From: an uncultured Methanobrevibacter sp.
GTDB lineage: Archaea; Methanobacteriota; Methanobacteria; Methanobacteriales; Methanobacteriaceae
NCBI GenBank assembly: GCA_902764015.1
Contig: CACWUH010000011.1
Span: forward strand, 1 to 35,711
DNA length: 35,711 nt
Direction of reading: 5' to 3'
The notes under the pieces are model-generated. The model was not told where the DNA came from. It ran no database searches and saw only the letters and a list, made by a program, of their open reading frames with translations. Shown here piece after piece: positions 1 through 33,613 of the stretch. A program made the position numbers and the translations under genes. Positions within the stretch are counted from its first letter, which is position 1. Every line of letters starts with the position of its first letter.

Positions 1-98
1 TCAAGGAAAATCCACATATTATTATGAATGGAAATGCTTTGACGAAAAAATAGGCATGGCCTAAGAATCTCCGGCTTCTACAAGCCGGAGAGGTTCAA
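1..98 (+). mobile_element. 3' end of an IS200/IS605 (TnpB-type) element, truncated by the window edge
   Basis: An open frame from base 2 ends at TAA 62-64 and encodes about 20 residues ending YEWKCFDEKIGMA. This is too short to identify by itself. Directly after the stop lies a perfect 9-bp stem (69-77 with 82-90, loop CTAC). It is followed by GAGGT-TCAA-ACCTC (90-103), in which TCAA sits at 95-98. A short GC-rich hairpin just past the tnpB stop, ending in TCAA, is the usual right end of IS200/IS605 elements. In TnpB systems the same stretch forms the 3' scaffold of the omega (reRNA) guide RNA. The element would then end at about 98, with flanking target DNA beginning at about 99. The assignment rests on this right-end architecture, not on a recognised TnpB domain. 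A terminator hairpin of an unrelated upstream gene is the main alternative, although no T-run follows it. Confidence 0.45.
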
Positions 99-378
99 AC
101 CTCAGAAATCATATAAACTTCTGAAAACCCTAAAAATAATTAGAAACATAAGGATTTCCATTGAAAAATGGAAAAAAATACATTGCATTAATTAAATTAA
201 ATTAAAATTAAAGAAATTAAATTAATCAAAATATTTTAATTCCGATTATATGGTTTGTATTTTCTAATATATAAAGTTTTAACGAGATAAAATCAATTTA
301 ACGAACTAAAAACAATTTTAATATGAGCATGTAAAAAAATAATAGAATAATTAATAAATTAAAAAAAATATTTTAAAT
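99..378. other. AT-rich intergenic stretch, no gene seen
   Basis: No supported coding frame is present. It contains low-complexity AT runs (repeats of ATTAAATTA at about 184-225). At its right edge, an A8 run at 361-368 reads as T8 on the minus strand just past the stop of the leftward transporter gene and could terminate it. Confidence 0.5.
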
Positions 379-13853: not shown

Positions 13854-13891
13854 TAAAAAAAAGATAAAAAAGTTAGGAAATTATTTCCTAA
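13854..13891 (-). terminator. Strong hairpin terminator of the giant adhesin gene
   Basis: A perfect 8-bp stem (13873-13880 with 13884-13891) has the TAA stop codon as its 3-base loop. On the minus strand it is followed by CTTTTTTATCTTTTTTTT. The stem and long T-tract at the 3' end fit intrinsic termination. Confidence 0.75.
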
Positions 13892-16800
13892 ACCTTCTAA
13901 TTTGAGTTGAAACGACCGCCAATATTACCAATAGCAATAACCATAGCGGATTACTTGTCTGATGGGCCTCAAGAGCAGTTACTGCCTTTGAGCTATGTGC
14001 GACATCACCATGATCATCACCTGGGCCGTTATCATGGACGAGGATTTCGGTTACAGTATCGATTGGGTCGTATTTCCTGTCTCCATGGAAGTGTGCCATG
14101 ACCTTATGGACTCCTTCAGATAATCCAGGAACGCTGAAGGTTGCCTTTCCGTTTCTGACCTTTGTGGCATATTTCTTACCTGCAACATTGATAGTCACCT
14201 TGCCTGTCGCATCCTTAGGAAGCTTGACGACCACATCGGCATCCTCACCCTGATTTATCTCATCGCCAGTGGCGCTTATTGAAGCTTTTGATTTGGATAC
14301 TGTAAATGAAACGCTTTTGCTGCTTGGCAGATACTTGTCATCACCTTCATATGTTACGGTAGCCTTGTATTTGCCTGCCGGAAGTTCAGGGATGATTATT
14401 TTGGCCTTGCCATTTACGATGTCACCATAATATCCGACACCGTTGATTTTGACGCATACCCTGCCGGTCGCATCGCTAGGAACAGTTACGGTGATTACCT
14501 CATCATTTCCGACCTTGATGTTTTTGGCATCGACAGTTATTGTTGAAGGGCGCTTTTTGACCTTGAACTGGCCGGTTGTGTAATTGCCTTCGTAATTATC
14601 GTCTCCTGAGTATGTTACCGCAACGGTCTTGTCGCCAAATGCCAGGCCTTTCACATTGAATACGGCTTTTCCATCGACGATCTTGTCGGTTGAGTATTTC
14701 TTGCCATTGATTTCAATTGTAACTGTACCTGTTGCATCTTTCGGAAGGGTTACGGTTACGACTGCAGTGTCTCCAACATAGATGTCGCTCACTTTCACAC
14801 TTATCGGCGTGGAATGTTTTGGAATCGTGACTGTTGAAGTGACTGTCTTGCCTCCGTGAGTATCATCACCGGAATATGTCACTTCGATTTCATGGGTTCC
14901 AGGGGTTGCATTGGTCAGCGGCACGATTGCGGTTCCGTTGACTACGGTTGCATTGTATGTCTGGTCTCCAATCTTGACCGTCACATTTCCAGATGCATTG
15001 TCTCCGACATTGACCATGACTGTGCCGTTGCCAAGGTCAATCACATCAACTGTTGTGGAGGATTTGCTGACCTTGAATGAGGTCTTGTTGTCGCTTGGCT
15101 TGTATTTGCCGTCACCGTTGTACCTTACAGTGACGTTGTAGTTTCCTTTAGGCAGTCCGTATATTCCGATCTTGCCCTTGCCTCCGCTCACTGCAGTGAT
15201 GAATACGCCATCCTGCAGACTGGTGCTTAAAACGCCGTCCGCCAGGTTGAAGTTGTACTCGTCACCGTCTATTATGATTGTTATGTTGCCTGTCGCATCT
15301 TCCGGAACGATGAACGTGATGATTTCGTTCTCGCCGACATTTATGTCCTCTGCAATTGGAATGACGAATGATGGGACTTTGGATACGTTGAATGAACTTG
15401 AATTGCTGCTTGGCAGGAACTGTCCGTCGCCTGTGTAAGTCAGGTTAACGTTATATGTTCCGTTAGGCATGCGAGGTATCTGGGTGGTTCCGACACCACC
15501 GGTCACATTGACATAGTATCCGACACCATCGATATCAATAAGCACCTGTCCGGTTGCATTTTCAGGCACATGGACAGTTATTGTGACATTCTCACCCACA
15601 TCTATATCCTCGATTGTGGCTGTTACCCATGAAGGGCGTTTTTCCATCGTGAGGTTTGCAACCGTATGGTTTGAGGCATAGTTGTCGTCACCAGGATATT
15701 CGACAGCTATCGTCTTTATTCCTTCAGTCAGGTTCTCTACATTGAATACTGCAACGCCGTCTTTGATTTCGACATTGTGTTTTACACCATCAATCTCAAT
15801 TGTTATGTTTCCTGTTGCGTTATTAGGCACTTCTACTGTAATCACTGCAATATCTCCAACTTCAGTGACGCCGGCGGTCACAGTGATTGGGGTTTCATAT
15901 TTAGGTGCCGTGACTGTTGCATTGACTGTTGCATTGGAGTATATGTCATCACCGGAATAGAATACTTCGACATCATGGGTGCCCGGAGTCACATTATCCA
16001 AATTGACAACGGCAGTTCCATTGACTACGGTGGCATTGAATAGCTCATCTCCAACCTTGATAGTCACATTGCCTGAGGCATTGCCCGGAACAACAACAAC
16101 GACTGTGCCGTTTGATAGGTCAACAACCTTGATGTCGGCAGGAGTTGTCTCCATCTTGGTCACATTGAATTCTGTCGAGTTTTCGCAAGGCTCGTACTTT
16201 CTGCATCCGTCGAATGTAACGTTTACAGTGTGGTTTCCGACCTTGAGTCCTGATACCGGCAGCACTCCGTGGCCTCCGGATACGAAGACTGTGTAAGGCT
16301 TGCCGTCGACTGTTACGGTCACGTTTCCGCAGAGGTCTTCAGGAGTTTCGACGTTGATTATTGCGGTTTCGCCATATTTGATGTTATCAACGGTTACGTT
16401 GATGTTTGAAGGCACTCTTGAAACGGTTACGCTTGAAGAGTTGCTTGAATTGAGGTATTGGTCATCGCCAAGGTATTCGAGCACTACAGGATGTGTTCCG
16501 CTGGCAAGTCCAGGAATTGTTGTGTTTCCTGTGCCCTTATCAACCTTGACTGCATAAGTGTGATTGCCTACGGTGACATGCACCCATCCGGTTGCATTTT
16601 CAGGGACGCTTACAACAACCAATGCATCCTCGCCGACCTTAATTGGGTCGATTGTGGCCGTTACAGTTGAATTGCGTTTGTCCACTGTGAAGTTGGCTGA
16701 GGTGGATGTGCCGGTGTAGTTTCCGTCTCCTGAGTATTTCACATAGGCTGTCTTGTTGCCGTAGGTCAGGTTGTCGATTTCGAATCTGACAACGTTGCCC

Positions 16801-19800
16801 GTTACGTTTTTCGGTTCGTATTTTACGCCGTTGATTTCGATTGTCACATCACCAGTTGCGTTTTCAGGAAGCTCGACAGTGATTATCTCAGTGTCTCCGA
16901 CCTTGATGTTTGTCACGTTTACGTGGAGATCGCTTTCGAGTCTTGGAATGGTTACTGTTCCGTTTGCAGTTGCGTTGGTGTAGTTTCCGTCACCTGAATA
17001 TACTGCAGTAATGTTATGGGTTCCAGGAGTAACGTTTTCCAAGTCTATTACGGCAATTCCGTCGGTCACGTTTGCCGTGAAGTTCTTGCCGTCGACATAA
17101 ACCGTCACATTGCCCTGCGCATCCTTCGGCAGTATGACTGTGACTGTTCCGTTTCCGTTGTCGACTATCTCCATGTCTGACAGGTTCATTCTGCCCACAT
17201 TGAATGTGGTTGAGTTGGAGCTTGGCAGGTACCTGTCGTTTCCGTTGTAGGTTACGTTCACGGTCTTGTCTCCGACTGTCAGGCCAGGTACGATTACGCT
17301 TATTACTCCATCGATTACGCCGACTGTCTTGTTGAACTCATCACCGATTGTGATTGTCACATTGCCTGTTGCGCCGGTGATTACGGTAATGTTTACTGCC
17401 GCAACGTCGCCAAGAGTAATGTTTGCAACCTTGACCTCGACGGTTGAGTTGACTTTGGATACCTTGAAGTCGGTTTCAGCGGTTGCCTCAGTATAGTTGT
17501 CATGCTCGTCGCCGACATAAGTCACGCGCACTGTGTAAGTGCCTTCCTTGAGGTCTTTTGGATATGCAACAGCCGTGCCTTCAATTACATCCCTGTAGTA
17601 GACGTCATCACCGATGACTTCGATTACCACATATCCTGTAGCATTTGCAGGGACGCTGACTGTGATGTTGCCGTCATCGCCGACAGTTATGTTCTGGGCA
17701 GTCACATTGATTGTCGGAGTTCTCTGGGTTACGCTGAATGATTTGGATGTCCAGTTTTCAGTGAAGTTCCTGTCTCCTTCATAGACCACCAGGATGCTGT
17801 GTCTGCCGACGCTCAAGCCGGTCAGGTTGGCCTGTGCAATGCCTTGAGTGATTGGTGCAACGATTGGGGTTTCACTGCCATCCACATATACAAGGGCATT
17901 GCCTGTTGCATTTTCATGGACAGTGATGTTTACCGCCTCTTTGTCCCAAACCTGAATGTCTGAGACTTCCACATCAATGGTCGTGTTGGTCTGATAGACC
18001 CTGAATGAGGCCTCGCCGCTCACCTGGTTGAAGTTTTCATTGCCGTTGTAGGTTACGCTGACAGAGTATTCTCCGACTGCAAGGTTTTCTATATGCCATT
18101 TGGCGTTTGCATCATAGTTGTCAAGTGAATCGACGGAGAACCTTAATACCCAAGTCTTTTCTTCAGTCAGGTTGATTTCGGTCGTGTTGCCGTTCACGGT
18201 AATGTTAACGCTTCCCTGTGCGTCGCCTTTTGCCCTTACGGTTACGATGATATGTTCAATATCACCGTATGGAATGTCCTGAACGCTGATTTCAAGTTCA
18301 GGGGTTGCCTTTGCAACTGTGAAGTTGACCCCTTCAAAGCTGGTTGTGTAGTTGACGTTTCCGTTGTAGTCCACTCTGACAGTGTAGTTGTTAGCATACA
18401 GATATCCTGGCACTGTGAATTCGGCTTTGCCATCGACAATAGGGATGTCAGCATAGGTTTCGCCGTCTACGGTAATGTTCACGCTGCCCGTCGCATCAAT
18501 GTAGACGGTTATTGTTTCCTTATCACCGAATGTGATGTTTTGAGGAACAATTGTGATGCCCGTAGTTGTCTGGTTAACTGTGAAGTTGGCCTTTGCTGTG
18601 GCCCTGTTATACTCTTCGTTGCCTTCGAAGTACAATGTGGCATTGTAGTTTCCTGCAGACAGGTTAGGCACAGTTAAATTACCTTTACCTTCTGATATGA
18701 ATGCTGTGTAGTTTTTGCCGTCGATTTCTACTTTAACCAAACTTGTAATGTTATCATCAGTTTCGATTGTCATGAATTCATCGGCTCCGACCGTGATGTT
18801 GGTTGGAGTTATTGTGAATTCAGTGTCTTTTTTGGATATTGTCACATTTGAAGTTGTGGAATTAGGCAGGTACTTGTAGTTTCCGAGGTATGTTGCGGTT
18901 ATGTTGTATTCCTTGCCCTTGAGACCTGTAATGTTGAATCTTGCAACGCCGCCTGTGATGTTTGCATATACATGCTGGTCGCCTATGTCAAGCAATATCT
19001 GACCGTCGGCTTCGTCAGGTACGGTCACATTGATTTGCACGATATCGCCAACGTTTGCGGCTTCCACATCAATGATAATTGGTGTTGGGTTTCTGTCGAC
19101 CCTGAATGCCCCGGTTGCATTGGATCCGTAGTAGTCCTTGTCTCCATAGTAGAATGCATGCACGATATATTCGTCCTCGCCAAGATTTGGAATTGTGATT
19201 GTGAGGTTTGAAGTTGTGGTATTGTGTTCAACTCCGTTTACGAATACTGTAATGTTTCCTGTAGCGCCTGGCGTGAGCTCAAGCTCGATTGTTACGTTTT
19301 CGCCGACTGTGACGTTTACGATAGGCTTGATTGAAATTTCTGATGGGAGCCTGTCAACCTTGAATGCTCCGAATCCTACATATTCAATGACTTTTGTGCC
19401 GTTGACTTCAAGATATATTGCTTCCACAGTATAATTTCCAGCATCCATATTTGGAACTGAGAGTTCTGCAGTGGATATGAGCTCTCCTGGAGTGATTGAA
19501 ACATTGGTGTCGTTTATCACATTTCCTTCGCTGTCTTTTACGATGATTCTCACTTCGCCAGTGTGGTTTCCATTGATTTCGACGAGGATGTTTTCAGTTC
19601 CGCCGGCACTGATTTCCTCGGTTTTAACTGTGAGGTTCTTGCCGTTGGAGTAGACTTCAAATTCTGTAGAGTTTCTGCTTTCAAGATACCTGTCGTTTTC
19701 GAGGTATCTGGCAGTCACGTTGTATATTCCGATTTCAGGAGTTTCAAGATGGAGGATGCCTTCGCCCTCATTTACAAATACTGTGTAGGTAGTGTTCTTG

Positions 19801-22800
19801 ACTCCGTCGTCGATTGTCACATTGACCTTTCCGGTTATGTCGTCAGGAGCGGTGATTATGATTGTCACATCACTTCCGTTGACGATTGCCTCACCTTCCC
19901 TTACTTCAACATTGATGAATGAATCCAGTTTGGATACTGTGACGCTTTCGGTGACATTGTTGCTTGGAAGGTATTTCTCATCACCGATATAGGTTACATA
20001 AACATCATAAGTGCCGCTTGGGAGGTCAAAGATAGTGACATTTCCTTTTCCGTCTGTCAGATTTACGGTGTAGTTTATGTTGTTGACTGACACAATCGCA
20101 TATCCTTCTGCATCATCAGGCACGGTGACGTTGATGAATGCTCCGCCTGCGACAGTGCAATTTGTAACGTCAACGTTTACGTATGACCCGCGTTTGGAAA
20201 CTGTGAAGTTTCCGGTTGTAGTGTTTTCAGTGTAATTGTCGTTTCCGGCATAAATAGCTACAACTGTCTTGTTGCCGTGTTCAAGACCGGACACTTCGAA
20301 GTATGCGATTCCATCTTCATATCTTTCTCTAGTATAAGTTTTGCCGTTGATTTCGATTGTCACATTATCGCTAGGTGCAGTCACATTGATGTATGCGACA
20401 TCTCCGACCAGTATGGAATCGACATCGATGACAATCGGTGATTCATGCTTGAATACCCAGAAGTCGGCGATTGCATATCTTGGACCATATTTGCCGTCTG
20501 TGAATGTGACGTTGACTGTGTGGTTGCCGTAAGGCCTGGTCACATTCAATTGTGCAATGCCTTGTGAGATTGTTGCATTTCCTGCGAATTTGCCGTCCAC
20601 ATATATGGATACATTGCCTACTGCATCTGCAGGAACTCTGACGACGATTGTGCTGTTCAGTCCGACTTCGGTATCGTTTGCGGTTACATTGATTTGATAG
20701 CAGCTTACCTTGTCCACTGTGAGTCCTTCTGTGAGTGTTACAGCAGCAGCTTCTGTGTAGTTGTTGTCTCCTGCATATTCTGCAGTGATGTTATATTTGC
20801 CTGAAAGCAGTTTGTCAATTGTGAAGATTGCAACTCCATTTTCAATAGTTGCATTGTATTTAGTGCCATTGACGGTAATTGTAATGTTTCCGGTAGCGGT
20901 ATCATTGATTCTCACAACTATTGTGGCGTTGGTGTTTGCATCAACCACCTGAGGCACATCAATAGCGATTACAGGAGTAGCCTTGGCAACATTGAAGTCT
21001 TTGGATGTTACATTTGTATCATATCCGTAGCTTCCGCCGTATTCGGCATGGACAGTGTAGTTTCCGGCAGGCAATCTTACGGTTATGTTGACCTTGCCGT
21101 CGACAATGCCGTAGGTGCCGATTAGAGTGTCGTTAATCTTGATTGTGATTGATCCTTCAACGCCATCATCGACGTAAACGACAATGTTTGAATCGTTGCC
21201 GTATACCGTATCATTCACGTCAATCATCAGGTTGGCTTTCGCCTTGGATACAGTGAAGTGTTCGATATGTGCAACGTGAGTGTAATTGTCATGGGCATCG
21301 CCGTGATATCTGACGGTTACCTTATAGTATCCTTCCTTCAGATTCTTAGGATAGACTGCAGCCTGGCCATGGCTTACATCACTATAATAAGTTCCAACGC
21401 CCTTAACCTCAATTTCAACATATCCGGTAGCGTTTGAAGGGAGATTTACAGTAATGTTTCCGTCCTGACCTACAATAATGTCATGGGCAATGATTTCCAT
21501 TGAAGGTGTTCTCTGCAGGACTTTATAGGTTTCCATTACCTTGCTTGATGAGAAGTTTCCATCACCTTCATAGAATACCCATACGACCCTTTCGCCTACG
21601 CTGTTTTCAGTGATGTTGAAACTGGCCGTACCGTTAATGATTCTGACATAATGGTTAATGCCGTCAATATTGATTGTCAAGGTGCCGTTCAGGTTTCTGG
21701 CCACATCGCCGGTTGAATTTCTGACTTCAATGTTTATGTATTCCTTATCCCAAACCCAAAGTTCATGAACATCGACAACCAATGATGTATCCATTGGAGA
21801 TACCCTGAATGTTGCAGTTGCCCTGGATTCGGTATAGTTCTCATTGCCGTTATAAATCACTTCAACATTGTAAGTGTTTGCAGCCAAATTGGCAAGTGTT
21901 ATTTGGGTGGAGTTATCCTCTAAAACCCTATAATCTTCAATGGTTTTGCCGTTTACCTTAATTGTCACATTGCCTGTGGCGTTTACATGGATATTGATAT
22001 TTTCAACATCGCCATAGACAATGTCATAAACATCAACTGTGACGGTTCTGCCTGCCTTATAAACAGTGAAGTCCTGTTCTGCGCTTGCGGCAGTGTGGTT
22101 GGCATCACCTGAGTAAATTGCTTTTAAGTTATAGTTTCCTGCAGCCAAATCGCTTATAACAAATTCTACCCTTCCGTTGTTTACAGGTTTAGGATCTCCG
22201 TATGGAGTTCCGTCAATTTCAATGGTCACATTACCTTCAGCGCAGTTGATGAGGGTTACAACGACAGGAACTGATTCGCCGTATGTTACGTTTTCAACGT
22301 CAATGACGATTTCCGGAGTTGCCGGAAGCACATTGAATTTGGTAGAGGTAGTGTTGTTGTTGTATTTGTCATCGCCTGGGAATACAACAGTGACGTTATA
22401 TTCGCCGACAGGCAATAGAGGAAGCTCAAGTATTGCAGTGCCGTTGCTGATTCTTGCGAAGTATTCCTCATCATTGACGAATATGGATACGACTCCTACA
22501 GTGTCGTTTAAAAGGGTAATGTTTATTACCTCATGCTGGATGTGGGTAATGTTTGTGGCATTGGCCTCAATTGTCGTGTTGTACTTGTGTACCCAGAATG
22601 TAGCGTCATTACTGGTTGGTATCAATTGTTCATTACCGTCATAACATACTGTAATGATTTTACGTCCTTCCGGCAATCCTGTTACGTTAAAGTAAGCTTT
22701 TGAATCATTTAAAAGCAGGATATATTTATCGTTGTCCAGATATAGGGTTACGTTACCCGTTGCGGTATATTCCGGAGGAGTGATGAGAGTAATATTGATA

Positions 22801-25800
22801 TAAACAGTTTCATCAACCATGATGTCATATGCGCTTACCTGAATGTCAACTATGGCATCGGCTTTTTCACGTACGACCACAGAAGTTGAATTGACTGAGG
22901 CATTGTAATTATGGTCGCCATTATAATACGCGATTGCAGTATAATTTGAAGGAAGCAGCTTTTCGATTTTTACAACGCCATTACCGTTAACAAGATGGAC
23001 GACTGCGGTTTTAATAGGAGTTGCAGAAACTTGGCTATAAATCTCAATGAGCACATCTCCCTCAGCATCCTTATAATAGATGCCGTCATAGTCATCGACA
23101 ATTGTGACATTTAGATATACATCATATCCCAGGTCATCATAGGTGATTGTGATGTTGGATTGTGCCTTAACCACATTGATTGGAATTGTTATATTGGCTG
23201 CATCATAGTATCGGTCACCCCAGTATCTCAAGGTGAGGTTATGTTTGCCAACTTCCAGGTATCTGTCACCGATTAAAGTGGAAATATTATTGAGCATTCC
23301 TCTACTGTCTTCGATAGTGATGTTTGCTAAGAATGTGTCATTGTAGTAGACTGAAACTATTCCTCTTGCAGCATTACCGGTTGCATTATGAGGAACAGAT
23401 ATAGTTACATCAACAGTTGCATTTCTGTGGTATATTACATCCAATGCTGAACCATCCATATTGACTTTTTCTCTTGAAGTATTCGTGATTTGAGTGTAGT
23501 AGTCCTCATTTGTAAGGCGTGCAGTTACATAAACATGTTCAAATGAGCTTAATTCGAAATCTGCAGTAGTCAAGTGGAGTCTGCCATTATCAATTGTTGC
23601 AAAAATGTCATTTCCGACATTCAATTTATTGTTATCATCATCAAATATCTCCACGATAATGCCTATACCGACTTCAGGGGTGGAAGCGGCTGCAGCATTC
23701 TTTAAGGTTCCGGTGAATGTCGATACCTTACCAGATGATGTGGTATTCTTGTCCCAATAATCCACATTGGTACAGGTTATAGTGCCTCCAGTAGCATATA
23801 TTGCATTTATGTAATTGTCCCATCCTTCAAATAGTATGTCGATAGTTCCGGCAACCCTATCCAAGTCCAAATTAAGCTTGGAACTATTTGCCCTATTTTC
23901 AATAAGTTCTGAATTTCTTAATGTGAATGATTGTGTTGCATAGATTGCTGAACCCTGATATGCCTTGTTTGATGTGAAATTGGTTCCGTCAATAACAAGT
24001 CCTGTTTTTTCAACATATATTGCACCACCTAAGTTGGCAGTGTTATTGATGAAATTGGCATCAGTTAGTTCAAGAGTCTTATAAGAATTATCAGGGGAGT
24101 AGTAAATAGCACCACCCCTATTAGTTGCCTTATTATCTATGAAAGTACAGTTATCAGTTATTTTAATGGAATTTCTAGTTAAATAAACCGATATTGCTCC
24201 ACCCTGATTAGCGGTGTTGTTAATGAATGTATCATTTTCAAACCATACATAGTCACATTCTTTGACTTGAACGGCTCCTCCACCATAGATGTTTTCACCA
24301 ACGGCTTTAGCAACGTTGTTTCTGAATGTAGTATTGACAATTAAAATATTAGGTTCCGTGTAGTAATTCTTATTGGATTGTATATACAATGCTCCTGCTT
24401 CCTTAGCAGATGAACAGTTCTCAAACAGACAATTGCTTACGGTATAATTTTTTTCAGCTCTTAAATACATGGCTCCACCTTGAACCCAAACCTTATTTCC
24501 TTTAGTGGTAAGATAATTGCCGATGAAATCACAATGGTCAATCAGTATGTGATAACTTTTATCCCATAAAACAGCTCCACCATCAGCCTTATCATTATTG
24601 GCTTGAACTGAATTATAATAGAACTTGGAATTTTTGAGAGTACCGTACTGTCCATTTTCAGAGAAGTAAAGGGCTCCACCACCCTTAGTATTTAAACTGG
24701 TAATTCCATGAGCAGTATTGTTTGTAAATATACAACCGTCAATGGTATTATATTGAGAAGCAGATCCGCCGGCCCAAAAGATGGCTCCACCATTACCATC
24801 TGCCAGGTTATTGGTGAAATTAGAATTGTATACGCTAGCGTGTAAACCGGTGGCATACACTGCACCACCATGTTCACTAGCATAAGAATCATTGGCTGAA
24901 GAACCATTTATAAGTGCATTAGCACCATTAATGTAGATTGTACCGCCTGTTTTTGCATGTGAAGACTCAAATTGAGAATCCGTAATGTTAGCATACTGAC
25001 CTTCAATATAAATAGCTCCACCTTCACCAACAGTTGTTAACACAGTTGAATTCTTGAAAACAGATCCGACAATGGTGGCATTATCTTTATTAATATAAAT
25101 AGCTCCACCACAAGGGTTACCACCATCATATGTTCCGCCAGTAATGGAAGAATTAGTGAAGTTGGAATCTTTTACTTTAGCATTGGCCCCATCAATGTAA
25201 ATAGCTCCACCACGGAATTTAGCAGATGAATCAGCAAAATTGGAACCATCAATTAATGTATATTCACCATTCACATAGATAGCACCACCTTCAGCACCAG
25301 TTTTAATATTTGCCTCGTTTTTGGTGAAGTTGGAACCTTCAATGACTGCATTGTCACCATTTACATAGATTGCTCCACCTTCACCTTTTGCAGTGTTCTG
25401 GTCGAAAGCAGAACCTATAATAGCAGTGTATTCGCCGTTTACGTAAATGGCTCCTCCCTGAGAACCGTCACTGCTTACTGTACAGTCAGTGAATTCGGAT
25501 TCCCTAATTGTGGTATTCGTACCGTTGATGTATATGGAACCTCCATAACGGTTTGACCTTGAATGTTCGAAGCTTGAATCTGTAATGTTAGTACCCCTAC
25601 CCTTAATATAGATGGCTCCACCGCGAGCCTCATGGTTGTTGTCGGCATGAGTGTTTGTGAAGTTGGAATTCTCGATTGATGTGAAGTTTCCGTTTACCAT
25701 TATCGCTCCACCACCGTTATCCACAGAACCGAATGCATAGGTGGTGTCGAATGTTGAATTTACGATTCTTGCATTTTCCCCATGCACATAAATGGCTCCA

Positions 25801-28800
25801 CCGGATAATGTAGCGTTCGTATTCTCGAATCCTGCAGATATTGTAGCGTTTTCTCCTTCCACATAAATAGCTCCACCGCGTATTGCATTGGAATGGTCTA
25901 TGGTACAGTTGTCTATTACAGTCTCATTACCCAGAATGTAAATTGTACCACCATAGTGGGATGCATTGTTGTGGCTGAATTCAGTTTCAGAGATAATTAC
26001 ATCATTACCTGTGATGAAGAGTGCTCCACCATCTATTTTTTCTTGGTTGGAGCCTTCAGCATATGAAACATTGTTGTAATTGAATTCTGATTTGGAAATG
26101 GTTACATCATCACCTGTCAGACAGATTGCGCCTCCTCTGGAGCTGGACCCATTGAAGCTTAAACCGTGGTTATCAGAACAGATAATTCCATCGATGGTAC
26201 CGTGATCACCTGACCAGTAAATGGCTCCACCGTCATCACCTGCGAAGTTATGGGTGAAATTGGAGTTGTACAGCTTACCTCCATCACCTGAAATGAATAA
26301 TGCTCCACCGTCATTCGTTGCATTAACATCTTTAAAGTCTGAATTTTCAATTGCAGCATCATCACCGGAGATGTAGACTGCTCCACCGGAATATGCAGTG
26401 GTTTGAGTTACATGTGAATCCCTGATTACGTCCCTATCACCGGAGATGTAGACAGCACCACCCAATCCATATGCCTTAGGAATGACCACATTATCCATGA
26501 CAATGTTGGCGAGATTATCCAATTCGTCCCTGGTGTCTTCAATGCCCTTGAACAATTCATCTAAAGCATTGTTTGACAAAGTTGCATTTATTACAGTTAA
26601 GGTTTGGTTAAGTTCATCCAATAAGCCTGAAGTAAGATTGAGGGCAGCGAGATTGAACTTGTTTCCAAGGAATATGTTTTCCGCAGCATCTTTGATAGAT
26701 TGCAGGGCATTTTCCAAATCAAGAATTGTTTCTATTGGAACTCCTTGAGATTCAAGGGTATCCAGGTTGGCAATCATTGAATTGATTTTATCCAAAATGC
26801 TTTCAGGAATCTTCAAGCTTTCGTCAATGATTGCAAGGGATTTCAGCTCATTTTCAGTATCATTAACATAGTTGAATAGGGAGAGAGTGTTTTCCTTATA
26901 TTCCTCTGGAGATAGGGTTGCATTAATTTGAGCCAATGTTTGATTCAATTCATCCAGCAATCCTAATGCAATTGTGATATTGGTTGAGTTGATTCCGCCC
27001 TTGGCGGTTGATACGTTTTCGATTGCTTTTCTGATATTCTTCAATTGGGATTTAATCCTTTCAATGTCTTCCTGTGAGATATGTTCGCAGGTCATGTTGC
27101 TGATAAAGACAATCATTTCATCAGTCTTATTCAACAAGTCCGCAATATGTTCCTCATAATAATCGGAATCGATGTGAGGAACATAATTGTCCATACCTGA
27201 CACTGATGAGTCAGTGATGTTTACGGAAATGACCGCATCGTCACCTTCAACATGAATGGATCCACCGTATACTGAAGCGTTGACATTGCTGATTTGAGTG
27301 TTGTTGATTTTAGCCTCGTTACCTTCAATGTAGATGGCACCACCGTTTATTGCAGTGGAATTAGTGATTGTGGAATCGTCAAGAACGGACCTGTCACCCT
27401 GTACATAAATTGCTCCACCTTCACTTGGAGCGGTACAGTTGTCGAAGGTACAGTTCCTGATTAATGTATCGTCACCGAGGATGTATAGCGCACCTCCATC
27501 TGAAATACCTATGGTTGAGTTCTTGAATACTGAATTGGTAATGTTTACGTGGTCTCCTGTGACGAATATTGTACCTCCGAGCAATCCGCCGTAGCTGTTT
27601 GTGAATGTTGATTTGTCTACGGAAACATCTGAACCGGTAAGACAGATTACTCCTCCCTTGGTGGAGGAACCTCCGCCTGCACCAGTACCTAAACCGTGGT
27701 TCAGGTCACATGTGATGTTGTAGATTATACCATGGTCTCCTTGCCAGAAGATTGCTCCACCGTCGTCCTTTGCAGAGTTGTTGAGGAATGTGGAGTTGTG
27801 GATTTCACAGTAGGTACCGTTCAGGTAGATTGCACCACCGTCGTAGTTGATTGTATGGTTGATGAATGTGGAGTTTATCACTATACCTCTGGTTGCTCCT
27901 GATGCATAGTAGATTGCACCACCGTCACGATGAGCGTGGTTGTGGTTGAATAGGGAATCTATGACATATCCGTCTCTTGCACCCACATCAAATGCGATGG
28001 CTCCACCGTGTCCTGTGAGAGTGTAGTCCACTTTGGTATCAGGATTTGCATCGTTTCTTTCTTCCCTAAAGTTTTTCCATGTGTTGTTTGCAGTGCCTAA
28101 TGCAGAGTTTTCTTCAAAGACACATAATTCGAATGTCACGTTTTCGTTGTCCTGCAGGAAGACAGCTCCACCACGGCCCGCTGCAGTACAGTTGATGAAT
28201 GTTGCATTGTAGACATAGATGTGGTCTCCTGTGAACATGATTGCACCTGCATCTCCACCGGTTGTGTTTGTATCCCAGTGGCTTGCATCCCATCCTGCAT
28301 ATTGAACCTTGTGGTCCTCACTTTCTTTGAGGGCGCCTCCGAATGCAGTGGCATTGATGATTGTGATGTTGGTCATTTCACCGTAGTCACCGTCATAGTA
28401 GATTGCACCTGCTGAACGTGCAGCCCTGGTGTTGTTGAAGGTACAGTTTATAACCTTACCGTAGTTAGCACCAGCCAGCCAGTCAAGACCTCCTCCGTTG
28501 CCCTGCATGTATGCTCCTCCACCACGGCGGGCGGAATCTGAGTTTATGAATATACAATGGTCGATGATACCGTGGTCTCCTCCCCATATGATAGAACCAC
28601 CGTCACCGCCGAAGTATTCATCGGTTGCCCAGTCGGTAGGGGAAGAATCGGTTGAATCCGTTTCGGTATGCTTTAACCATGCGTATTCATTTACAGGGTC
28701 AGGAACAGTTACGTACAATTCATATTTGACGTTGGTTTTGCCATCTTTGGTTACAAGGACATATAATTGGTCGAGTGTGGATGAATCAGGTGTCGGCAAG

Positions 28801-29582
28801 TGAGTTACCTCATGAACTTTGCTTAAAGATGTGAAATTGACATGTTCTGTGTCGATAGCGGTACCCAATGCCTTGTTTCCGGTGAAGTTACAGTAGCTTA
28901 CATTACCTTCGCTGCCGTCCCATGAGAATGCTCCACCGGATCTTTTGGCTGTATTGTTTATAAATGCGGAATTGTAGATTGTGGCCTGTGATGATCCATA
29001 TGCGAAGCTTATTGCACCACCGTCACATGCAGCGGTGTTGTTTATGAATATGGAGTTTTTGATTGTACCATTTGAAGCACCCAGGTCGAAACCGACAGCT
29101 CCACCGAGACCTGTCTTCCATTCGTTGTGTCCGCTTTCATTATCTCTTGGATTATTATAGGTGTTGTTTGCAATGCCTAAAGCCCTGTTGTTTTCAAATC
29201 TACATGCATCAAAGGTCACATTGTCATTGTCCTGCAGGAACACGGCTCCTCCACGGCCGGCTGCAGTACAGTTTGTGAAAGTGATATCTTTGAGGGTTGT
29301 ATGGCTTCCGGTAATCATGATTGCTCCCGCATCACCACCAGTCGTATTTGTGTCCCAGTGACTTACGTCCCAGCCTGCAAAGTGAACCCTCTTATCGTCG
29401 CAGACCTTAAGAGCTCCGCCGTATGCGGTTGTATTGATTAATGTGATGTTTACCATTTCACCGTAGTCACCGTCATAGTATATTGCACCTGCTGAACGTG
29501 CAGCCCTGGTGTTGTTGAAGGTACAGTTTATAACCTTACCGTAGTTAGCACCAGCCAGCCAGTCAAGACCTCCTCCGTTGTG
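13881..29582 (-). CDS. Main open segment of the giant adhesin-like protein: beta-helix, helical insert, Ig-like array, C-terminal anchor
   Basis: 5,233 uninterrupted residues; the first in-frame ATG is at 29456. From the upstream end to about 23.75 kb there are many right-handed beta-helix coils (Chlam_PMP/pectate-lyase-like) marked by GGAIY and NSTFxNN. They are interrupted by a helical insert at about 26490-27165. From about 23.45 to 14.03 kb there are about 35 Ig-like domains (Big_3-type, ~85-95 residues; core ATGNVTI, then GDDNY near each end). The tail is a hydrophilic linker, then TSNP, a hydrophobic helix and RRFRK, so the protein is probably membrane-anchored and exported. No LPXTG or pseudomurein-binding repeat is seen. 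Such proteins are thought to mediate contact with host, plant fibre or microbial partners. With no start at its 5' end, it is translatable only if the upstream breaks are artefacts or a cryptic start is used. Confidence 0.85.
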   Translation of the reverse strand, partial: HNGGGLDWLAGANYGKVINCTFNNTRAARSAGAIYYDGDYGEMVNITLINTTAYGGALKVCDDKRVHFAGWDVSHWDTNTTGGDAGAIMITGSHTTLKDITFTNCTAAGRGGAVFLQDNDNVTFDACRFENNRALGIANNTYNNPRDNESGHNEWKTGLGGAVGFDLGASNGTIKNSIFINNTAACDGGAISFAYGSSQATIYNSAFINNTAKRSGGAFSWDGSEGNVSYCNFTGNKALGTAIDTEHVNFTSLSKVHEVTHLPTPDSSTLDQLYVLVTKDGKTNVKYELYVTVPDPVNEYAWLKHTETDSTDSSPTDWATDEYFGGDGGSIIWGGDHGIIDHCIFINSDSARRGGGAYMQGNGGGLDWLAGANYGKVINCTFNNTRAARSAGAIYYDGDYGEMTNITIINATAFGGALKESEDHKVQYAGWDASHWDTNTTGGDAGAIMFTGDHIYVYNATFINCTAAGRGGAVFLQDNENVTFELCVFEENSALGTANNTWKNFREERNDANPDTKVDYTLTGHGGAIAFDVGARDGYVIDSLFNHNHAHRDGGAIYYASGATRGIVINSTFINHTINYDGGAIYLNGTYCEIHNSTFLNNSAKDDGGAIFWQGDHGIIYNITCDLNHGLGTGAGGGSSTKGGVICLTGSDVSVDKSTFTNSYGGLLGGTIFVTGDHVNITNSVFKNSTIGISDGGALYILGDDTLIRNCTFDNCTAPSEGGAIYVQGDRSVLDDSTITNSTAINGGAIYIEGNEAKINNTQISNVNASVYGGSIHVEGDDAVISVNITDSSVSGMDNYVPHIDSDYYEEHIADLLNKTDEMIVFISNMTCEHISQEDIERIKSQLKNIRKAIENVSTAKGGINSTNITIALGLLDELNQTLAQINATLSPEEYKENTLSLFNYVNDTENELKSLAIIDESLKIPESILDKINSMIANLDTLESQGVPIETILDLENALQSIKDAAENIFLGNKFNLAALNLTSGLLDELNQTLTVINATLSNNALDELFKGIEDTRDELDNLANIVMDNVVIPKAYGLGGAVYISGDRDVIRDSHVTQTTAYSGGAVYISGDDAAIENSDFKDVNATNDGGALFISGDGGKLYNSNFTHNFAGDDGGAIYWSGDHGTIDGIICSDNHGLSFNGSSSRGGAICLTGDDVTISKSEFNYNNVSYAEGSNQEKIDGGALFITGNDVIISETEFSHNNASHYGGTIYILGNETVIDNCTIDHSNAIRGGAIYVEGENATISAGFENTNATLSGGAIYVHGENARIVNSTFDTTYAFGSVDNGGGAIMVNGNFTSIENSNFTNTHADNNHEARGGAIYIKGRGTNITDSSFEHSRSNRYGGSIYINGTNTTIRESEFTDCTVSSDGSQGGAIYVNGEYTAIIGSAFDQNTAKGEGGAIYVNGDNAVIEGSNFTKNEANIKTGAEGGAIYVNGEYTLIDGSNFADSSAKFRGGAIYIDGANAKVKDSNFTNSSITGGTYDGGNPCGGAIYINKDNATIVGSVFKNSTVLTTVGEGGAIYIEGQYANITDSQFESSHAKTGGTIYINGANALINGSSANDSYASEHGGAVYATGLHASVYNSNFTNNLADGNGGAIFWAGGSASQYNTIDGCIFTNNTAHGITSLNTKGGGALYFSENGQYGTLKNSKFYYNSVQANNDKADGGAVLWDKSYHILIDHCDFIGNYLTTKGNKVWVQGGAMYLRAEKNYTVSNCLFENCSSAKEAGALYIQSNKNYYTEPNILIVNTTFRNNVAKAVGENIYGGGAVQVKECDYVWFENDTFINNTANQGGAISVYLTRNSIKITDNCTFIDNKATNRGGAIYYSPDNSYKTLELTDANFINNTANLGGAIYVEKTGLVIDGTNFTSNKAYQGSAIYATQSFTLRNSELIENRANSSKLNLDLDRVAGTIDILFEGWDNYINAIYATGGTITCTNVDYWDKNTTSSGKVSTFTGTLKNAAAASTPEVGIGIIVEIFDDDNNKLNVGNDIFATIDNGRLHLTTADFELSSFEHVYVTARLTNEDYYTQITNTSREKVNMDGSALDVIYHRNATVDVTISVPHNATGNAARGIVSVYYNDTFLANITIEDSRGMLNNISTLIGDRYLEVGKHNLTLRYWGDRYYDAANITIPINVVKAQSNITITYDDLGYDVYLNVTIVDDYDGIYYKDAEGDVLIEIYSQVSATPIKTAVVHLVNGNGVVKIEKLLPSNYTAIAYYNGDHNYNASVNSTSVVVREKADAIVDIQVSAYDIMVDETVYINITLITPPEYTATGNVTLYLDNDKYILLLNDSKAYFNVTGLPEGRKIITVCYDGNEQLIPTSNDATFWVHKYNTTIEANATNITHIQHEVINITLLNDTVGVVSIFVNDEEYFARISNGTAILELPLLPVGEYNVTVVFPGDDKYNNNTTSTKFNVLPATPEIVIDVENVTYGESVPVVVTLINCAEGNVTIEIDGTPYGDPKPVNNGRVEFVISDLAAGNYNLKAIYSGDANHTAASAEQDFTVYKAGRTVTVDVYDIVYGDVENINIHVNATGNVTIKVNGKTIEDYRVLEDNSTQITLANLAANTYNVEVIYNGNENYTESRATATFRVSPMDTSLVVDVHELWVWDKEYINIEVRNSTGDVARNLNGTLTINIDGINHYVRIINGTASFNITENSVGERVVWVFYEGDGNFSSSKVMETYKVLQRTPSMEIIAHDIIVGQDGNITVNLPSNATGYVEIEVKGVGTYYSDVSHGQAAVYPKNLKEGYYKVTVRYHGDAHDNYTHVAHIEHFTVSKAKANLMIDVNDTVYGNDSNIVVYVDDGVEGSITIKINDTLIGTYGIVDGKVNITVRLPAGNYTVHAEYGGSYGYDTNVTSKDFNVAKATPVIAIDVPQVVDANTNATIVVRINDTATGNITITVNGTKYNATIENGVAIFTIDKLLSGKYNITAEYAGDNNYTEAAAVTLTEGLTVDKVSCYQINVTANDTEVGLNSTIVVRVPADAVGNVSIYVDGKFAGNATISQGIAQLNVTRPYGNHTVNVTFTDGKYGPRYAIADFWVFKHESPIVIDVDSILVGDVAYINVTAPSDNVTIEINGKTYTRERYEDGIAYFEVSGLEHGNKTVVAIYAGNDNYTENTTTGNFTVSKRGSYVNVDVTNCTVAGGAFINVTVPDDAEGYAIVSVNNINYTVNLTDGKGNVTIFDLPSGTYDVYVTYIGDEKYLPSNNVTESVTVSKLDSFINVEVREGEAIVNGSDVTIIITAPDDITGKVNVTIDDGVKNTTYTVFVNEGEGILHLETPEIGIYNVTARYLENDRYLESRNSTEFEVYSNGKNLTVKTEEISAGGTENILVEINGNHTGEVRIIVKDSEGNVINDTNVSITPGELISTAELSVPNMDAGNYTVEAIYLEVNGTKVIEYVGFGAFKVDRLPSEISIKPIVNVTVGENVTIELELTPGATGNITVFVNGVEHNTTTSNLTITIPNLGEDEYIVHAFYYGDKDYYGSNATGAFRVDRNPTPIIIDVEAANVGDIVQINVTVPDEADGQILLDIGDQHVYANITGGVARFNITGLKGKEYNITATYLGNYKYLPNSTTSNVTISKKDTEFTITPTNITVGADEFMTIETDDNITSLVKVEIDGKNYTAFISEGKGNLTVPNLSAGNYNATLYFEGNEEYNRATAKANFTVNQTTTGITIVPQNITFGDKETITVYIDATGSVNITVDGETYADIPIVDGKAEFTVPGYLYANNYTVRVDYNGNVNYTTSFEGVNFTVAKATPELEISVQDIPYGDIEHIIVTVRAKGDAQGSVNITVNGNTTEINLTEEKTWVLRFSVDSLDNYDANAKWHIENLAVGEYSVSVTYNGNENFNQVSGEASFRVYQTNTTIDVEVSDIQVWDKEAVNITVHENATGNALVYVDGSETPIVAPITQGIAQANLTGLSVGRHSILVVYEGDRNFTENWTSKSFSVTQRTPTINVTAQNITVGDDGNITVSVPANATGYVVIEVIGDDVYYRDVIEGTAVAYPKDLKEGTYTVRVTYVGDEHDNYTEATAETDFKVSKVNSTVEVKVANITLGDVAAVNITVITGATGNVTITIGDEFNKTVGVIDGVISVIVPGLTVGDKTVNVTYNGNDRYLPSSNSTTFNVGRMNLSDMEIVDNGNGTVTVILPKDAQGNVTVYVDGKNFTANVTDGIAVIDLENVTPGTHNITAVYSGDGNYTNATANGTVTIPRLESDLHVNVTNIKVGDTEIITVELPENATGDVTIEINGVKYEPKNVTGNVVRFEIDNLTYGNKTAYVKYSGDGNYTGTSTSANFTVDKRNSTVTATIDPIKVGEDALVVVSVPENATGWVHVTVGNHTYAVKVDKGTGNTTIPGLASGTHPVVLEYLGDDQYLNSSNSSSVTVSRVPSNINVTVDNIKYGETAIINVETPEDLCGNVTVTVDGKPYTVFVSGGHGVLPVSGLKVGNHTVNVTFDGCRKYEPCENSTEFNVTKMETTPADIKVVDLSNGTVVVVVPGNASGNVTIKVGDELFNATVVNGTAVVNLDNVTPGTHDVEVFYSGDDIYSNATVNATVTAPKYETPITVTAGVTEVGDIAVITVEVPNNATGNITIEIDGVKHNVEIKDGVAVFNVENLTEGIKTIAVEYPGDDNYASNHTVANLTMEKRPSWVTATIEDIDVGENVTITVHVPENATGQVLIDIDGVGYYVNVTGGVGTTQIPRMPNGTYNVNLTYTGDGQFLPSSNSSSFNVSKVPSFVIPIAEDINVGENEIITFIVPEDATGNITIIIDGDEYNFNLADGVLSTSLQDGVFITAVSGGKGKIGIYGLPKGNYNVTVRYNGDGKYKPSDNKTSFKVSKSSTTVDVIDLGNGTVMVNVGDNASGNVTVKIGDQTYNATVVNGTAIVPLTNATPGTHEIEVTYSGDDTHGGKTVTSTVTIPKHSTPISVKVSDIYVGDTAVVTVTLPKDATGTVTIEINGKKYSTDKIVDGKAVFNVKGLAFGDKTVAVTYSGDDNYEGNYTTGQFKVKKRPSTITVDAKNIKVGNDEVITVTVPSDATGRVCVKINGVGYYGDIVNGKAKIIIPELPAGKYKATVTYEGDDKYLPSSKSVSFTVSKSKASISATGDEINQGEDADVVVKLPKDATGKVTINVAGKKYATKVRNGKATFSVPGLSEGVHKVMAHFHGDRKYDPIDTVTEILVHDNGPGDDHGDVAHSSKAVTALEAHQTSNPLWLLLLVILAVVSTQIRRFRK
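14025..23450 (-). repeat. Tandem array of about 35 Ig-like domain repeats
   Basis: Reading the protein I count about 35 successive domains of roughly 255-320 bases each. Typical elements in order are IxVxVxDIxVGD, an ITVxVPxNATGNVTI strand pair, a variable DGxxY turn, GxAxFxVxGL, then VxYxGDDNY and FxVSK as linker. The last twelve fall into three four-domain super-repeats (about 17190-16160, 16160-15063 and 15063-14025). An older four-domain block at about 22325-21240 is matched by one at about 18573-17452. Confidence 0.85.
26490..27165 (-). other. Helical (coiled-coil-like) insert inside the beta-helix region
   Basis: About 225 residues without any GGAIY coil signature break the solenoid. 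They are Leu/Glu/Asn-rich and predicted helical. Two related halves are visible, each containing LLDELNQTL followed by INATLS and a D-x-x-ELxxLA segment. Coils resume on both sides (GGSIHVEGDD before, GGAVYISGDR after). It may project from the solenoid as a helical hairpin or bundle. The function is unknown. Confidence 0.7.
28374..29580 (-). repeat. Near-identical 127-bp repeat pair (28374-28500 and 29454-29580)
   Basis: The two copies lie exactly 1,080 bases apart and differ at one base (28401 against 29481); the last 99 bases (28402-28500, 29482-29580) are identical. The sequence on the low-coordinate side of both copies is only roughly three-quarters similar. The identical block of the second copy ends exactly at the frame break at 29580. 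Confidence 0.85.
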
Positions 29583-30408
29583 TCACATGGTCACTTCCAA
29601 GCATGTATGCTCCTCCACCACGACGTGCGGAATTGGAATATATGACGTTACAGTGGTCTATTACACCACGGTCTCCTTCCCAGAGGATGGAACCTCCGTC
29701 ACCACCGTAGTAATAATCGATTGCCCAATCGGTTGCGGAAGGTTCGGTTTCATTGGTTTCAGCATGGTTCAGCCATTCATATGTGCCGTTTTCGTTGCGG
29801 ATAGTGATGTATAATGTGTATTTGGCCCTTTCATCACCGTTGTAGTCAATGAGGACATATAACTTGTTGAATGTTTCTGCGCTTGCATTCGGCAAGTCTG
29901 TTACGTTGATTACCTGTGAAAGGGATGTGATGTTTGCATGGTGTGTATGGATAATTATGCCTAAAGCATGGTTTAGAGTGAAGTTACAGTAGCTTACGTT
30001 ACCTCCGATACCGTTCCATGAAATCGCTCCACCACTGTGCATTGCGGTGTTGTTTATGAAGTTGGAGTTTATTACTGTACCGTTACGTGCGCCTAGATAC
30101 CAGTTGATTGCACCGCCGTCAATACCTGCGGTGTTGTCGATGAATGTACAGTTGTCGAACTTGGTATCCGTACAGAGACCCATGTCACTGCCCTGAAGGT
30201 ATACTCCACCACCGTTGTTTTCGGCGAAGTTGGTTTCAAAGGTACAGTTTTTAACAGTACCATGGTATCCTGTCCACATGATAGCTCCACCATTACCTCC
30301 ATAGGTTTCATTTCCATAGGAGTCGTTGTACAATACCTGACCCAATGCCCTGTTGTTTGTGAAGTTGGAATCTTCTATTGTACCGTTTCTACCGAACCAG
30401 AAGATTGC
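29583..30408 (-). pseudogene. Adhesin segment 5 of 6 (beta-helix coils, out of frame with both neighbours)
   Basis: An open segment with coils such as GGAIMWTGYHG, GGGVYLQGSD, GGAINWYLGARNG and GGAISWNGIGG. It then has a non-coil stretch with YTLYITIRNENG and ends GGGAYMLGSDHVT before running out of frame. The equivalent site one unit later reads GGGAYMQGNGGG, so the break lies in the coil that follows. Its upstream edge begins abruptly with AIFWFGRNG, lacking the GG that should precede it. Confidence 0.75.
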
Positions 30409-30917
30409 TTGAGTGCGCCTCTGTACCAGTCGATTGCACCACCGTTTACGCCTGCAACGTTGTCCGTGAATCTAGAATCCGTGACCGTCACATTTTCACA
30501 GTTACCATATTTCAGACTTCCCTGCAGGAAGATGGCTCCACCGTTGACCTTAGCGTCGTTCTTGTCGAATGTGGAATTTTCGACCGTACCGTTTGCACCT
30601 GTCCACATGATTGCTCCACCGTGGCCACCGGTAGTGTTTTCACCGAATGAATTTATTGCACTTGCATTGCCCAGCGCATGGTTGTTGGTGAATTTGGAGT
30701 TGTTTACAATACCCTGAGTACCGAACCAGTATATTGCACCACCAGAACGTTTAGCGGTGTTGTCGACGAAAGTGGAATTGTCCACAAGACCGTTGAATGC
30801 ACCTTCGTTCCAGTCGATAGCACCACCGTTGGTTCCAGCAGTATTGTTCTTGAAGTAGGAATGCCTGAATTCCGTATCTGTAGCGTTTTCCTCTTCACTG
30901 GCCTGCAGGAATACAGC
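30409..30917 (-). pseudogene. Adhesin segment 4 of 6 (beta-helix coils)
   Basis: It opens with AVFLQASEEENATD, continues through GGAIDWNEGAFNG, RSGGAIYWFGTQG, GGAIMWTGANG and GGAIFLQGS, and stops being in frame after GGAIDWYRGAL. The next segment starts at AIFWFG, so about 19-20 residues of the module (the coil normally reading N-x-T-F-x-NNTAKRSGG) are missing at about 30409-30413. Confidence 0.75.
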
Positions 30918-31281
30918 TGTTATTTACAAAGTTACAGTATTCCACATCACCCAGTGCACCGGACCACATGATTGCACCACCGTCACCACCGGTAGTGTTA
31001 TCACCCAGAACACTGGTTGCATTGACTTCACCCAATGCGCGGTTGTCATAGAATTTGGAATATCTTACGGTACCGTTGTGACCGTTCCAGAATATTGCAC
31101 CACCGCTGCGCATAGCTGTGTTGGCGATGAATGTGACATTGTCAACAATACCGTTGTGGGCACCTTTGTTCCAGTCGATTGCACCACCGTTGGTTCCAGC
31201 AGTATTGTTCTTGAAGTAGGAATGCCTGAATTCCGTATCTGTAGCGTTTTCCTCTTCACTGGCCTGCAGGAATACAGCTGT
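30820..31281 (-). repeat. Exact 101-bp repeat pair (30820-30920 and 31181-31281)
   Basis: Both copies encode the same AVFLQASEEENATD...NGGA stretch and are identical over 101 bases. In coding direction both begin at the same base (AGCTGTATTC), preceded by unrelated sequence, and both starting points are frame breaks. At the other end the identity stops at a single mismatch (30819 against 31180). Confidence 0.9.
30918..31280 (-). pseudogene. Adhesin segment 3 of 6 (beta-helix coils)
   Basis: It starts with the second copy of AVFLQASEEENATD and runs through GGAIDWNKGAHNG, RSGGAIFWNGHNG and GGDGGAIMWSGALG, ending EYCNFVNN. The next segment starts again at AVFLQ, so only about 7 residues of the expected xAxxRGG link are absent. 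Confidence 0.75.
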
Positions 31282-31696
31282 GCACCGGACCACATGATTG
31301 CACCACCGTCACCGCCATCGGTTACAGGGCCTAAAACGCTGGTTGCATTGACTTCGCCCAAAGCATGGTTGTCATAGAATTTGGAATATCTTACGGTACC
31401 GTTGTGACCGTCCCAGAATATAGCACCACCTGAACGTTTGGCTGTGTTGTTTACGAAAACACCGTTTTCCACAAGACCGTCATGAGCTCCGGCATGCCAG
31501 TCAAGTGCACCACCGTTAGTGCCTGCAACATTATTTTCAAAGTAGACATTGGTGAATGTAGTGTTTTCACAGTTACCATGACTGCAGTTCTGAAGGTATA
31601 CTGCACCACCACGACCACCAAAGTCATAGGCACTATTCTTCATAGCTTCATTATCAATGAACCTACAGTTATCGACAGTACCAAGCAGTGTTGCTT
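31281..31696 (-). pseudogene. Adhesin segment 2 of 6 (beta-helix coils)
   Basis: It starts within LLGTVDNCRFIDNEAM, continues through RGGAVYLQNCSHG, GGALDWHAGAHDG, RSGGAIFWDGHNG and VNATSVLGPVTDGGDGG, and ends AIMWSGA. Its upstream edge lacks the linker and GDGGAIxWxG coil expected before GTVDNC. Its downstream edge lacks about 18-20 residues before AVFLQ. Confidence 0.75.
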
Positions 31697-33162
31697 GTGA
31701 AGTTGGAGTCAAGTATCCTACCATTATGACCAGACCAGAATATCGCACCACCATTGGAACCTGCAGTATTATGGGTAAAGGTAGAGTTATATACATTACC
31801 GTCATGAGCACCATCATGCCAGTCAAGTGCACCACCATTGACACCTGCAGTGTTGTTGATGAATGTACACCATTCAAATGTAGTATTGGTACAATTGTCA
31901 TGAGTACAGTTTTGCAGGTATACTGCACCACCACGATTATCAGCACTGTTATTGATAAACCTACAATGGGCAACAGTACCATTTACACCAGACCATATGA
32001 TGGCACCACCATCACCAATATTACCATGAGTATCAGTAATAGTACCCTTAGCAGTATTGTTGGTAAAGTTGGAATCATGTATCTCACCATGGTGACCTGC
32101 CCAGAATACTGCTCCACCATTACCACTAGCCCTATTGTTGGTGAAAGTGGTATTGTATATATTACCATCATGAGCACCTTCCTGCCAGTCAACTGCACCA
32201 CCATTAAGACCTGCAATATTATTATTAAAGATGGAATTTGATACAGTGGTATTTGTACAGTTTTCCGTAGAGTTACCATGCAGGAATATTGCTCCTCCAC
32301 GCTGTTTAGCTTCATTATGTATGAACCTACAGTTATCGACAGTACCATTACTACCTACCCATATCACAGCACCGCCGTCTCCACCGCCAAGTACGCCTCC
32401 GAACTCGGAAATCACATCTCCGATAGCAACATTGTCAGTGAAATTTGAATCTCTAATTGTTCCGTCATGACCGCTCCAATGTATAGCACCACCACTGCGT
32501 TTGGCAGTGTTGTTGGTGAATGTTGAGCTGATCACTTTTCCGTGTGTGGAACCATAACGCCAGTCAATAGCACCACCGTTTAAGCTGGCGACATTTCCAT
32601 TAAACTCACAGTTCTCAATTGTACTCTTGGTACTGTTGTCAAGGTATATCGCACCACCATGCTCTGCGGCAGTGTTATTGATGAACTTACAATCAATAAT
32701 GGTCAATACTCCATGTGAACATATAGACCCTCCATTACCTGAAGCATTACCATTGATGAATGTAATTCCTTTTAATGTAACGGCAACTCCGTTACTTATA
32801 TTAAATATTCTGGCCTGATTGCTACCATCAATTATCACTTTACCGTTACCGTCTATGGTAGTGTCCTTATCGATGAGTACTCCCTCTTTCAAGCCGGAAT
32901 CCGAGCTGCCGTAAGTATAATTCTTAGTTAAATTGACTTCTCCGCCATCTTTTACTGCATCCTGCAAGTTAGTAAATGAGTCTGCATCTTCACTTCCAGT
33001 CAGCAGCGAATCATCTGAGTCAGGAAGTGAATATGAAGAGACATCACTAACGGCTATACTATCATCATCTGTTGTATTAAGGTCACTTGTGGCCGCAACG
33101 GCATGAAGTGAGAAGATACAACACATGATTAAACATATAATAAATATCTCTTTTCTATTCAT
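31697..33162 (-). pseudogene. Adhesin N-terminal segment with signal peptide (segment 1 of 6)
   Basis: From the ATG at 33162 it encodes MNRKEIFIICLIMCCIFSLHAVAATSD, a clear signal peptide with likely cleavage near AVAA. An Asp/Ser-rich linker follows, then FTNLQDAV (a common entry strand of beta-helix proteins) and coils up to about residue 488 (ILDSNFTSNTA). The frame then runs out and meets a stop at 31669. An earlier in-frame start six codons upstream is less likely, because GGGAGGTG (complement of 33168-33175) is ideally placed for 33162. If made as read, the product would be a secreted beta-helix protein of just under 500 residues without an anchor. Confidence 0.8.
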
Positions 33163-33475
33163 AATACACCTCCCTCCCACATTTTTTTGACATAAATTTT
33201 TTACATCAATAGGGAGAGTCTACGGTGATATGTATATAAGTTGATGGAAATATATAAACTTTAATATTTGAATTTCAACGAAAAAATTGAAATGTTTATA
33301 TAAAATACCTAAAATAATAAAAAATCATCACATTTCATTTCAAAATTTGAATAAAATAACAATATTGAAAACAGTAAAATGCATAGATGATTTGGCATGA
33401 TTTCTCAAAGAAATATTACTTTTCATAAAAAAAACTTGCAACTGGTGCAGATGATCTTTCTTGATTAAATGACAA
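33163..33475. promoter_or_regulatory. Promoter and leader of the giant adhesin gene, plus AT-rich spacer
   Basis: On the minus strand, CTTATATAC (complement of 33232-33240) and TTTATATA (complement of 33251-33258) are two good TATA boxes. The nearer one predicts a start at about 33210 and a leader of about 45-50 bases. The strong GGGAGGTG site (33168-33175) lies 5 bases before the ATG. The remaining 33270-33475 is AT-rich with no supported gene. Confidence 0.6.
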
Positions 33476-33613
33476 GAATATACAATAGAAAATAAGTAAT
33501 GAAAATGGAAGCGAAAAACTTCAAAAATCTAAATTTGATTGGCAGCTCAGAATATACAATAGAAAAAAAGTAATAAAATGGAAGTCGTTAAACTTCCAAA
33601 TCTAATTTGATTG
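33476..33613 (-). repeat. Tandemly duplicated ~65-bp 3'-end module
   Basis: Copies at 33476-33541 and 33550-33613 share GAATATACAATAGAAAA, AATGGAAG, an AACTTC arm and ATTTGATTG, separated by GCAGCTCA. The copy nearest the gene (33550-33613) has an intact hairpin; the other has a shortened one. The module lies directly after the stop of the leftward gene at 33615. Confidence 0.7.
33560..33598 (-). terminator. Hairpin terminator after the second adhesin gene
   Basis: A 7-bp stem, TGGAAGT (33579-33585) with ACTTCCA (33592-33598), loop of 6, is followed on the minus strand by TTTTATTACTTTTTTT. It lies 17 bases past the stop codon. Confidence 0.65.

Follow-up and report, generated by a model that had tools for sequence, protein, structure and literature searches.

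Frame breaks in a giant adhesin-like protein gene of an uncultured Methanobrevibacter sp. are very probably assembly seams

The window considered here is the whole of contig C11 (35,711 bp; CACWUH010000011.1) from assembly GCA_902764015.1, a draft genome of an uncultured Methanobrevibacter sp. that consists of 156 contigs and 1.98 Mb and has an estimated completeness of 84%. It carries a giant gene for an adhesin-like protein (ALP), read from the minus strand, that begins with an ATG at 33162 (N-terminus MNRKEIFIICLIMCC..) and ends with a stop at 13881, a span of about 19.3 kb (19282 bp) or about 6,427 codons as assembled. The encoded order is a signal peptide, right-handed beta-helix (Chlam_PMP) modules, Ig-like modules of the Big_3_5 type and a C-terminal hydrophobic anchor. 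Pfam matches to Chlam_PMP and Beta_helix were obtained for the N-terminal pieces of the gene, and the translation of the long downstream ORF, which has 5,191 codons, contains further beta-helix modules followed by Ig-like modules and the C-terminal hydrophobic segment; the Ig-like assignment is taken from this translation and from the Big_3_5 match in the neighbouring ALP. The C-terminus (..NPLWLLLLVILAVVSTQIRRFRK) agrees with that of the relatives. As all the components used to recognise a methanogen adhesin-like protein are found (N-terminal signal peptide or anchor, beta-helix and Ig-like Big modules), the gene product is assigned to the extracellular adhesin-like proteins of Methanobrevibacter, its surface location and role in adhesion being predicted from sequence.

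A second ALP gene (window 33615-35711), with Big_3_5 modules (E 3e-44), runs past the right end of the contig, so that contig C11 itself breaks within an ALP. Between the two ALP genes, at 33475-33613, a 74-bp AT-rich unit is present in two tandem copies. Just 5' of the start of the giant gene lies a conserved leader (window 33158-33224, minus strand) that consists, in order, of AUAGACUCUCC and a stem-loop with a sequence not shared by most relatives; an A-rich linker then leads to GGAGG(G) and the start codon. Fourteen such leaders precede ALP genes, counting the present one and those of relatives, and the seven that were folded gave z values from -1.3 to -4.2. The strict leader pattern occurs about once per genome having it, ahead of this ALP lineage, and a search for an Rfam family gave no match to the leader. 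Pairing of the CUCUCC with the ribosome-binding GGAGGG is possible, so that the ribosome site may be masked by the leader.

Three-frame translations of the giant gene confirmed the five frame breaks that the earlier note had placed at 29580-31697: on the minus strand, the frame changes at about 31683, 31280, 30919, 30410 and 29580 (B1 to B5; Table 1). All five fall inside 2.1 kb of the 19.3-kb gene and none was found elsewhere in it, which is not what an even distribution would give ((2118/19282)^5, about 2e-5, a post hoc figure). The borders of a codon-model segmentation (29577/29590, 30406 and 31684) agree with the breaks, and the relatives appear as single-frame segments; as this model routed frame shifts through short non-coding states, its count of 0 "direct shifts" for C11 is uninformative. 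A sixth junction (J6), beyond the five of the earlier note, keeps the reading frame, and there a truncated module (..RRGGGAYMQG) directly abuts NGGGLDWLAG... It stayed concealed in an open frame because the deletion is a multiple of three. When J6 is counted, the damaged region extends over 3.2 kb.

Table 1. Features of the giant ALP gene and of the contig edge (window coordinates)
Feature	Position	Strand	Basis
Contig tip; identity to the C31 tip over exactly 99 bp	1..99		tip comparison
Giant adhesin-like protein (ALP) gene	13881..33162	-	ORF list, Pfam, translation, relatives
Junction B1: frame change, about 23 residues absent relative to relatives	31682..31684	-	translation and alignment
Junction B2: change of frame with about 19 residues missing, at the entry edge of R1 copy A	31279..31281	-	repeats, translation, alignment
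Junction B3: change of frame with about 8 residues missing, at the entry edge of R1 copy B	30918..30920	-	repeats, translation, alignment
Junction B4: change of frame with about 18 residues missing, without long exact repeat	30409..30411	-	translation and alignment
Junction B5: change of frame with about 14 residues missing, at the entry edge of R2 copy 1	29580..29581	-	repeats, translation, alignment
Junction J6: in-frame loss of about 19 residues, entry edge of R2 copy 2	28500..28501	-	translation, alignment, control scan
Repeat R1 copy A, 99 bp (exact 101 bp at 31181-31281)	31181..31279	-	exact-repeat search
Repeat R1 copy B, 99 bp (exact 101 bp at 30820-30920)	30820..30918	-	exact-repeat search
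Repeat R2 copy 1, exactly 99 bp	29482..29580	-	exact-repeat search
Repeat R2 copy 2, exactly 99 bp	28402..28500	-	exact-repeat search

Four of the six junctions coincide with the edge of a long exact repeat. R1 and R2 are the only exact repeats of at least 90 bp in the window together with 14 further contigs or part-contigs of the draft, and in both of them the two copies are entered at the identical base, from truncated modules with differing left ends; J6 thus lies at the same base of the second R2 copy as B5 does in the first. The earlier note had observed that the breaks at about 31280 and 30918 start with the same base of an exact 101-bp repeat and that the break at 29580 lies at the edge of a 99-base identity to 28402-28500, and both observations hold, the latter identity being R2. 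The length of 101 bp is exact for the R1 copies (30820-30920 and 31181-31281), but the shared unit is better taken as 99 bp: the leading bases AC of R1 also suit the upstream module in each copy, base 31280 being inside a 34-bp match (31280-31313 = 30954-30987) and the AAC continuing the Asn-Asn of the other copy. By contrast, no long exact repeat was found at B1 or B4: B1 borders a 27-bp match (31657-31683 = 32321-32347) and B4 is without any match. A second near-identical copy of the sequences flanking B1 and B4 was not found in the readable genome, in which 13 of the 16 short contigs sampled are all N, so that partners located there could be missed.

We then considered the same modules in relatives of the gene, which are found in uncultured Methanobrevibacter drafts such as RUG14697 and several goat gut MAGs. 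Stop-to-stop ORFs run through these modules in G014 (7,819 codons), G028 (5,834), G001 (7,811) and G002 (7,821); the frame is therefore unbroken in independently assembled relatives, including G014 and G028, which are single-contig genomes, and no frame change was seen inside any of the relatives' ALP genes examined. Seventy-residue pieces from either side of each junction were compared with long unbroken ORFs of eight related genomes, and in the best pairs the gap was constant, with 23 residues at B1, 19 at B2, 8 at B3, 18 at B4, 14 at B5 and 19 at J6; these values are the lengths of the missing parts, the sequence of which was not reconstructed. Scanned as a control, 203 in-frame positions gave a modal gap of zero in 157 cases, and J6 is the only in-frame position of the well conserved part (33162-27900) without any gap-free relative. 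The spacing of the R1 copies provides an independent check: their distance of 361 bp is not divisible by three, but once the roughly 20 bp missing at B3 are added it becomes 381 bp or 127 codons, equal to the module spacing of G014 (positions 715, 842 and 969). A search for contigs of the same species that read across the junctions returned other species only.

If a graph assembler has left a seam, the repeat found there is expected to equal in length the overlap shared by contig ends of that assembly, and this overlap was used as a yardstick. Among the 49 readable contig tips of the draft (contigs that are all N being excluded), three independent tip pairs, C11/C31, C131/C59 and C80/C8, are identical over exactly the first 99 bp and diverge thereafter. 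The repeats at B2 and B3 (99+2 bp) and at B5 and J6 (99 bp) match this overlap of 99 bp, in a comparison that covered sampled contigs and tips of the draft. An overlap of 99 bp is compatible with k = 99, or with k = 100 and a k-1 overlap, and several programs fit. In addition, contig C150 of the draft contains a 10-N gap, and end joining therefore probably occurred in making the draft.

The first 99 bases of the window, which include a G+C-rich hairpin followed by GAGGTTCAA, are the edge of a multi-copy element with 90-100% identical copies on seven other contigs, at their ends or within a few bases of them; from its appearance, we guess that an IS200/IS605-type element may end here. In contig C74 (L046, about 238-374, minus strand), an ALP-like gene shifts frame close to the end of the contig, where FTNVTYWG is duplicated, possibly at another seam.

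Taken as given, the sequence with its five frame changes could be that of a real pseudogene, the beta-helix part of the ALP having been disrupted in this lineage by small deletions, and the loss of one ALP could be tolerated as ALP repertoires are large (PMC11532034, PMC2812497). This is nevertheless very unlikely, since all the damage is confined to the short region described above, the 5,191 codons downstream of it remain open and the segments between the breaks are free of stops and up to 86% identical to relatives; moreover, decay would require that, twice over, a pair of deletions had stopped at one and the same base in both copies of a repeat, and would leave the equality between repeat length and assembler overlap as an unexplained coincidence. 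For these reasons a pseudogene was rejected.

Recombination between repeats, which the earlier note had named beside an assembly misjoin as a source of such breaks, would make the junctions real variation of a phase-variable or mosaic ALP, of which the assembly caught one or more alleles or a strain mixture. Direct repeats of 74-100% identity are indeed abundant and the number of modules appears to vary between relatives, but unequal exchange shifts whole periods (about 127 codons), in frame and with homology across the joint, whereas the present joints show losses of 8-23 residues that are for the most part out of frame, and no extended homology. Like decay, recombination would need two pairs of deletions, each ending at the same base in both copies, it leaves the 99-bp coincidence unexplained, and no break of this kind was seen in those ALP genes of relatives that were examined. 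As the joints neither remove whole periods nor keep homology and are mostly out of frame, we rejected this part of the proposal and consider it extremely unlikely, while the misjoin stands, supported by contig tips that share exactly 99 bp. It is likewise extremely unlikely that the six junctions are real and mark a hot spot of small, mostly frame-shifting deletions in near-identical beta-helix modules, by which the strain would switch off or change the giant adhesin.

We therefore consider that the frame breaks are very probably (with a probability of roughly 0.93) assembly seams rather than mutations, and that the gene in the cell is most likely one open frame: seams would be expected to give two repeat families in which both copies are cut at the same base and whose length equals the assembler overlap, whereas mutation would be very unlikely to do so. 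At B1 and B4, which are without the 99-bp signature, it is the missing module parts that point to seams. The draft would have been built from short reads on a graph with 99-base contig overlaps, the short-read graph being deduced from the overlap of the tips. Where beta-helix modules hold near-identical stretches longer than 99 bases, the downstream contigs would all open with one shared 99-base word, while those upstream would end some tens of bases early; the assembler would then have joined the ends without Ns and without recovering the missing 20-70 bases. A loss that is not a multiple of three would produce a frame break, and a loss that is a multiple of three would stay hidden. Short read pairs are known to resolve repeats and strain differences poorly, and scaffolding can add misassemblies (PMC8021871). 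The product in the cell is most likely one protein of about 6,500 residues, as judged from the relatives and from the sum of the about 6,427 assembled codons and roughly 100 missing ones, so that the size of ~6,400 residues given by the earlier note was about right.

At face value, the public record describes a broken adhesin, although the gene is very probably intact. Surface targets under consideration for methane mitigation include the giant ALPs of rumen methanogens (PMC2812497). Many of these proteins are known from draft genomes alone, in which such seams could inflate the counts of pseudogenes and hide full-length proteins. The two tests used here, comparison of tip overlap with the length of the repeats at breaks and constancy of the length of module parts missing relative to relatives, need no reads and could be used to screen ALPs in other drafts, whereas in-frame seams such as J6 would slip past any screen for frameshifts. 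The artefact is an ordinary one in biological terms, and its value lies in the warning for annotation and in the read-free screening test.

The architecture of the present protein, with an N-terminal signal or anchor segment, right-handed beta-helix (RBH) modules, Ig-like Big-type modules and a C-terminal hydrophobic segment, resembles that of subgroup IA, in which Methanobrevibacter and Methanosphaera ALPs combine RBH and archaeal Big domains (PMC11532034). With about 6,500 codons it exceeds the largest ALP reported for M. smithii (4,691 aa; PMC11532034) and falls inside the range of its unbroken relatives (5,834-7,821 codons). The junctions resemble the misjoined repeats of short-read de Bruijn-graph assemblies (PMC8021871), in that the contig ends share one graph word, the repeats exceed the word length and the assembly is a fragmented draft. 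Unlike the usual short-read misjoins, they are joined without N and with small losses, so that these seams resemble frameshifts and not gaps.
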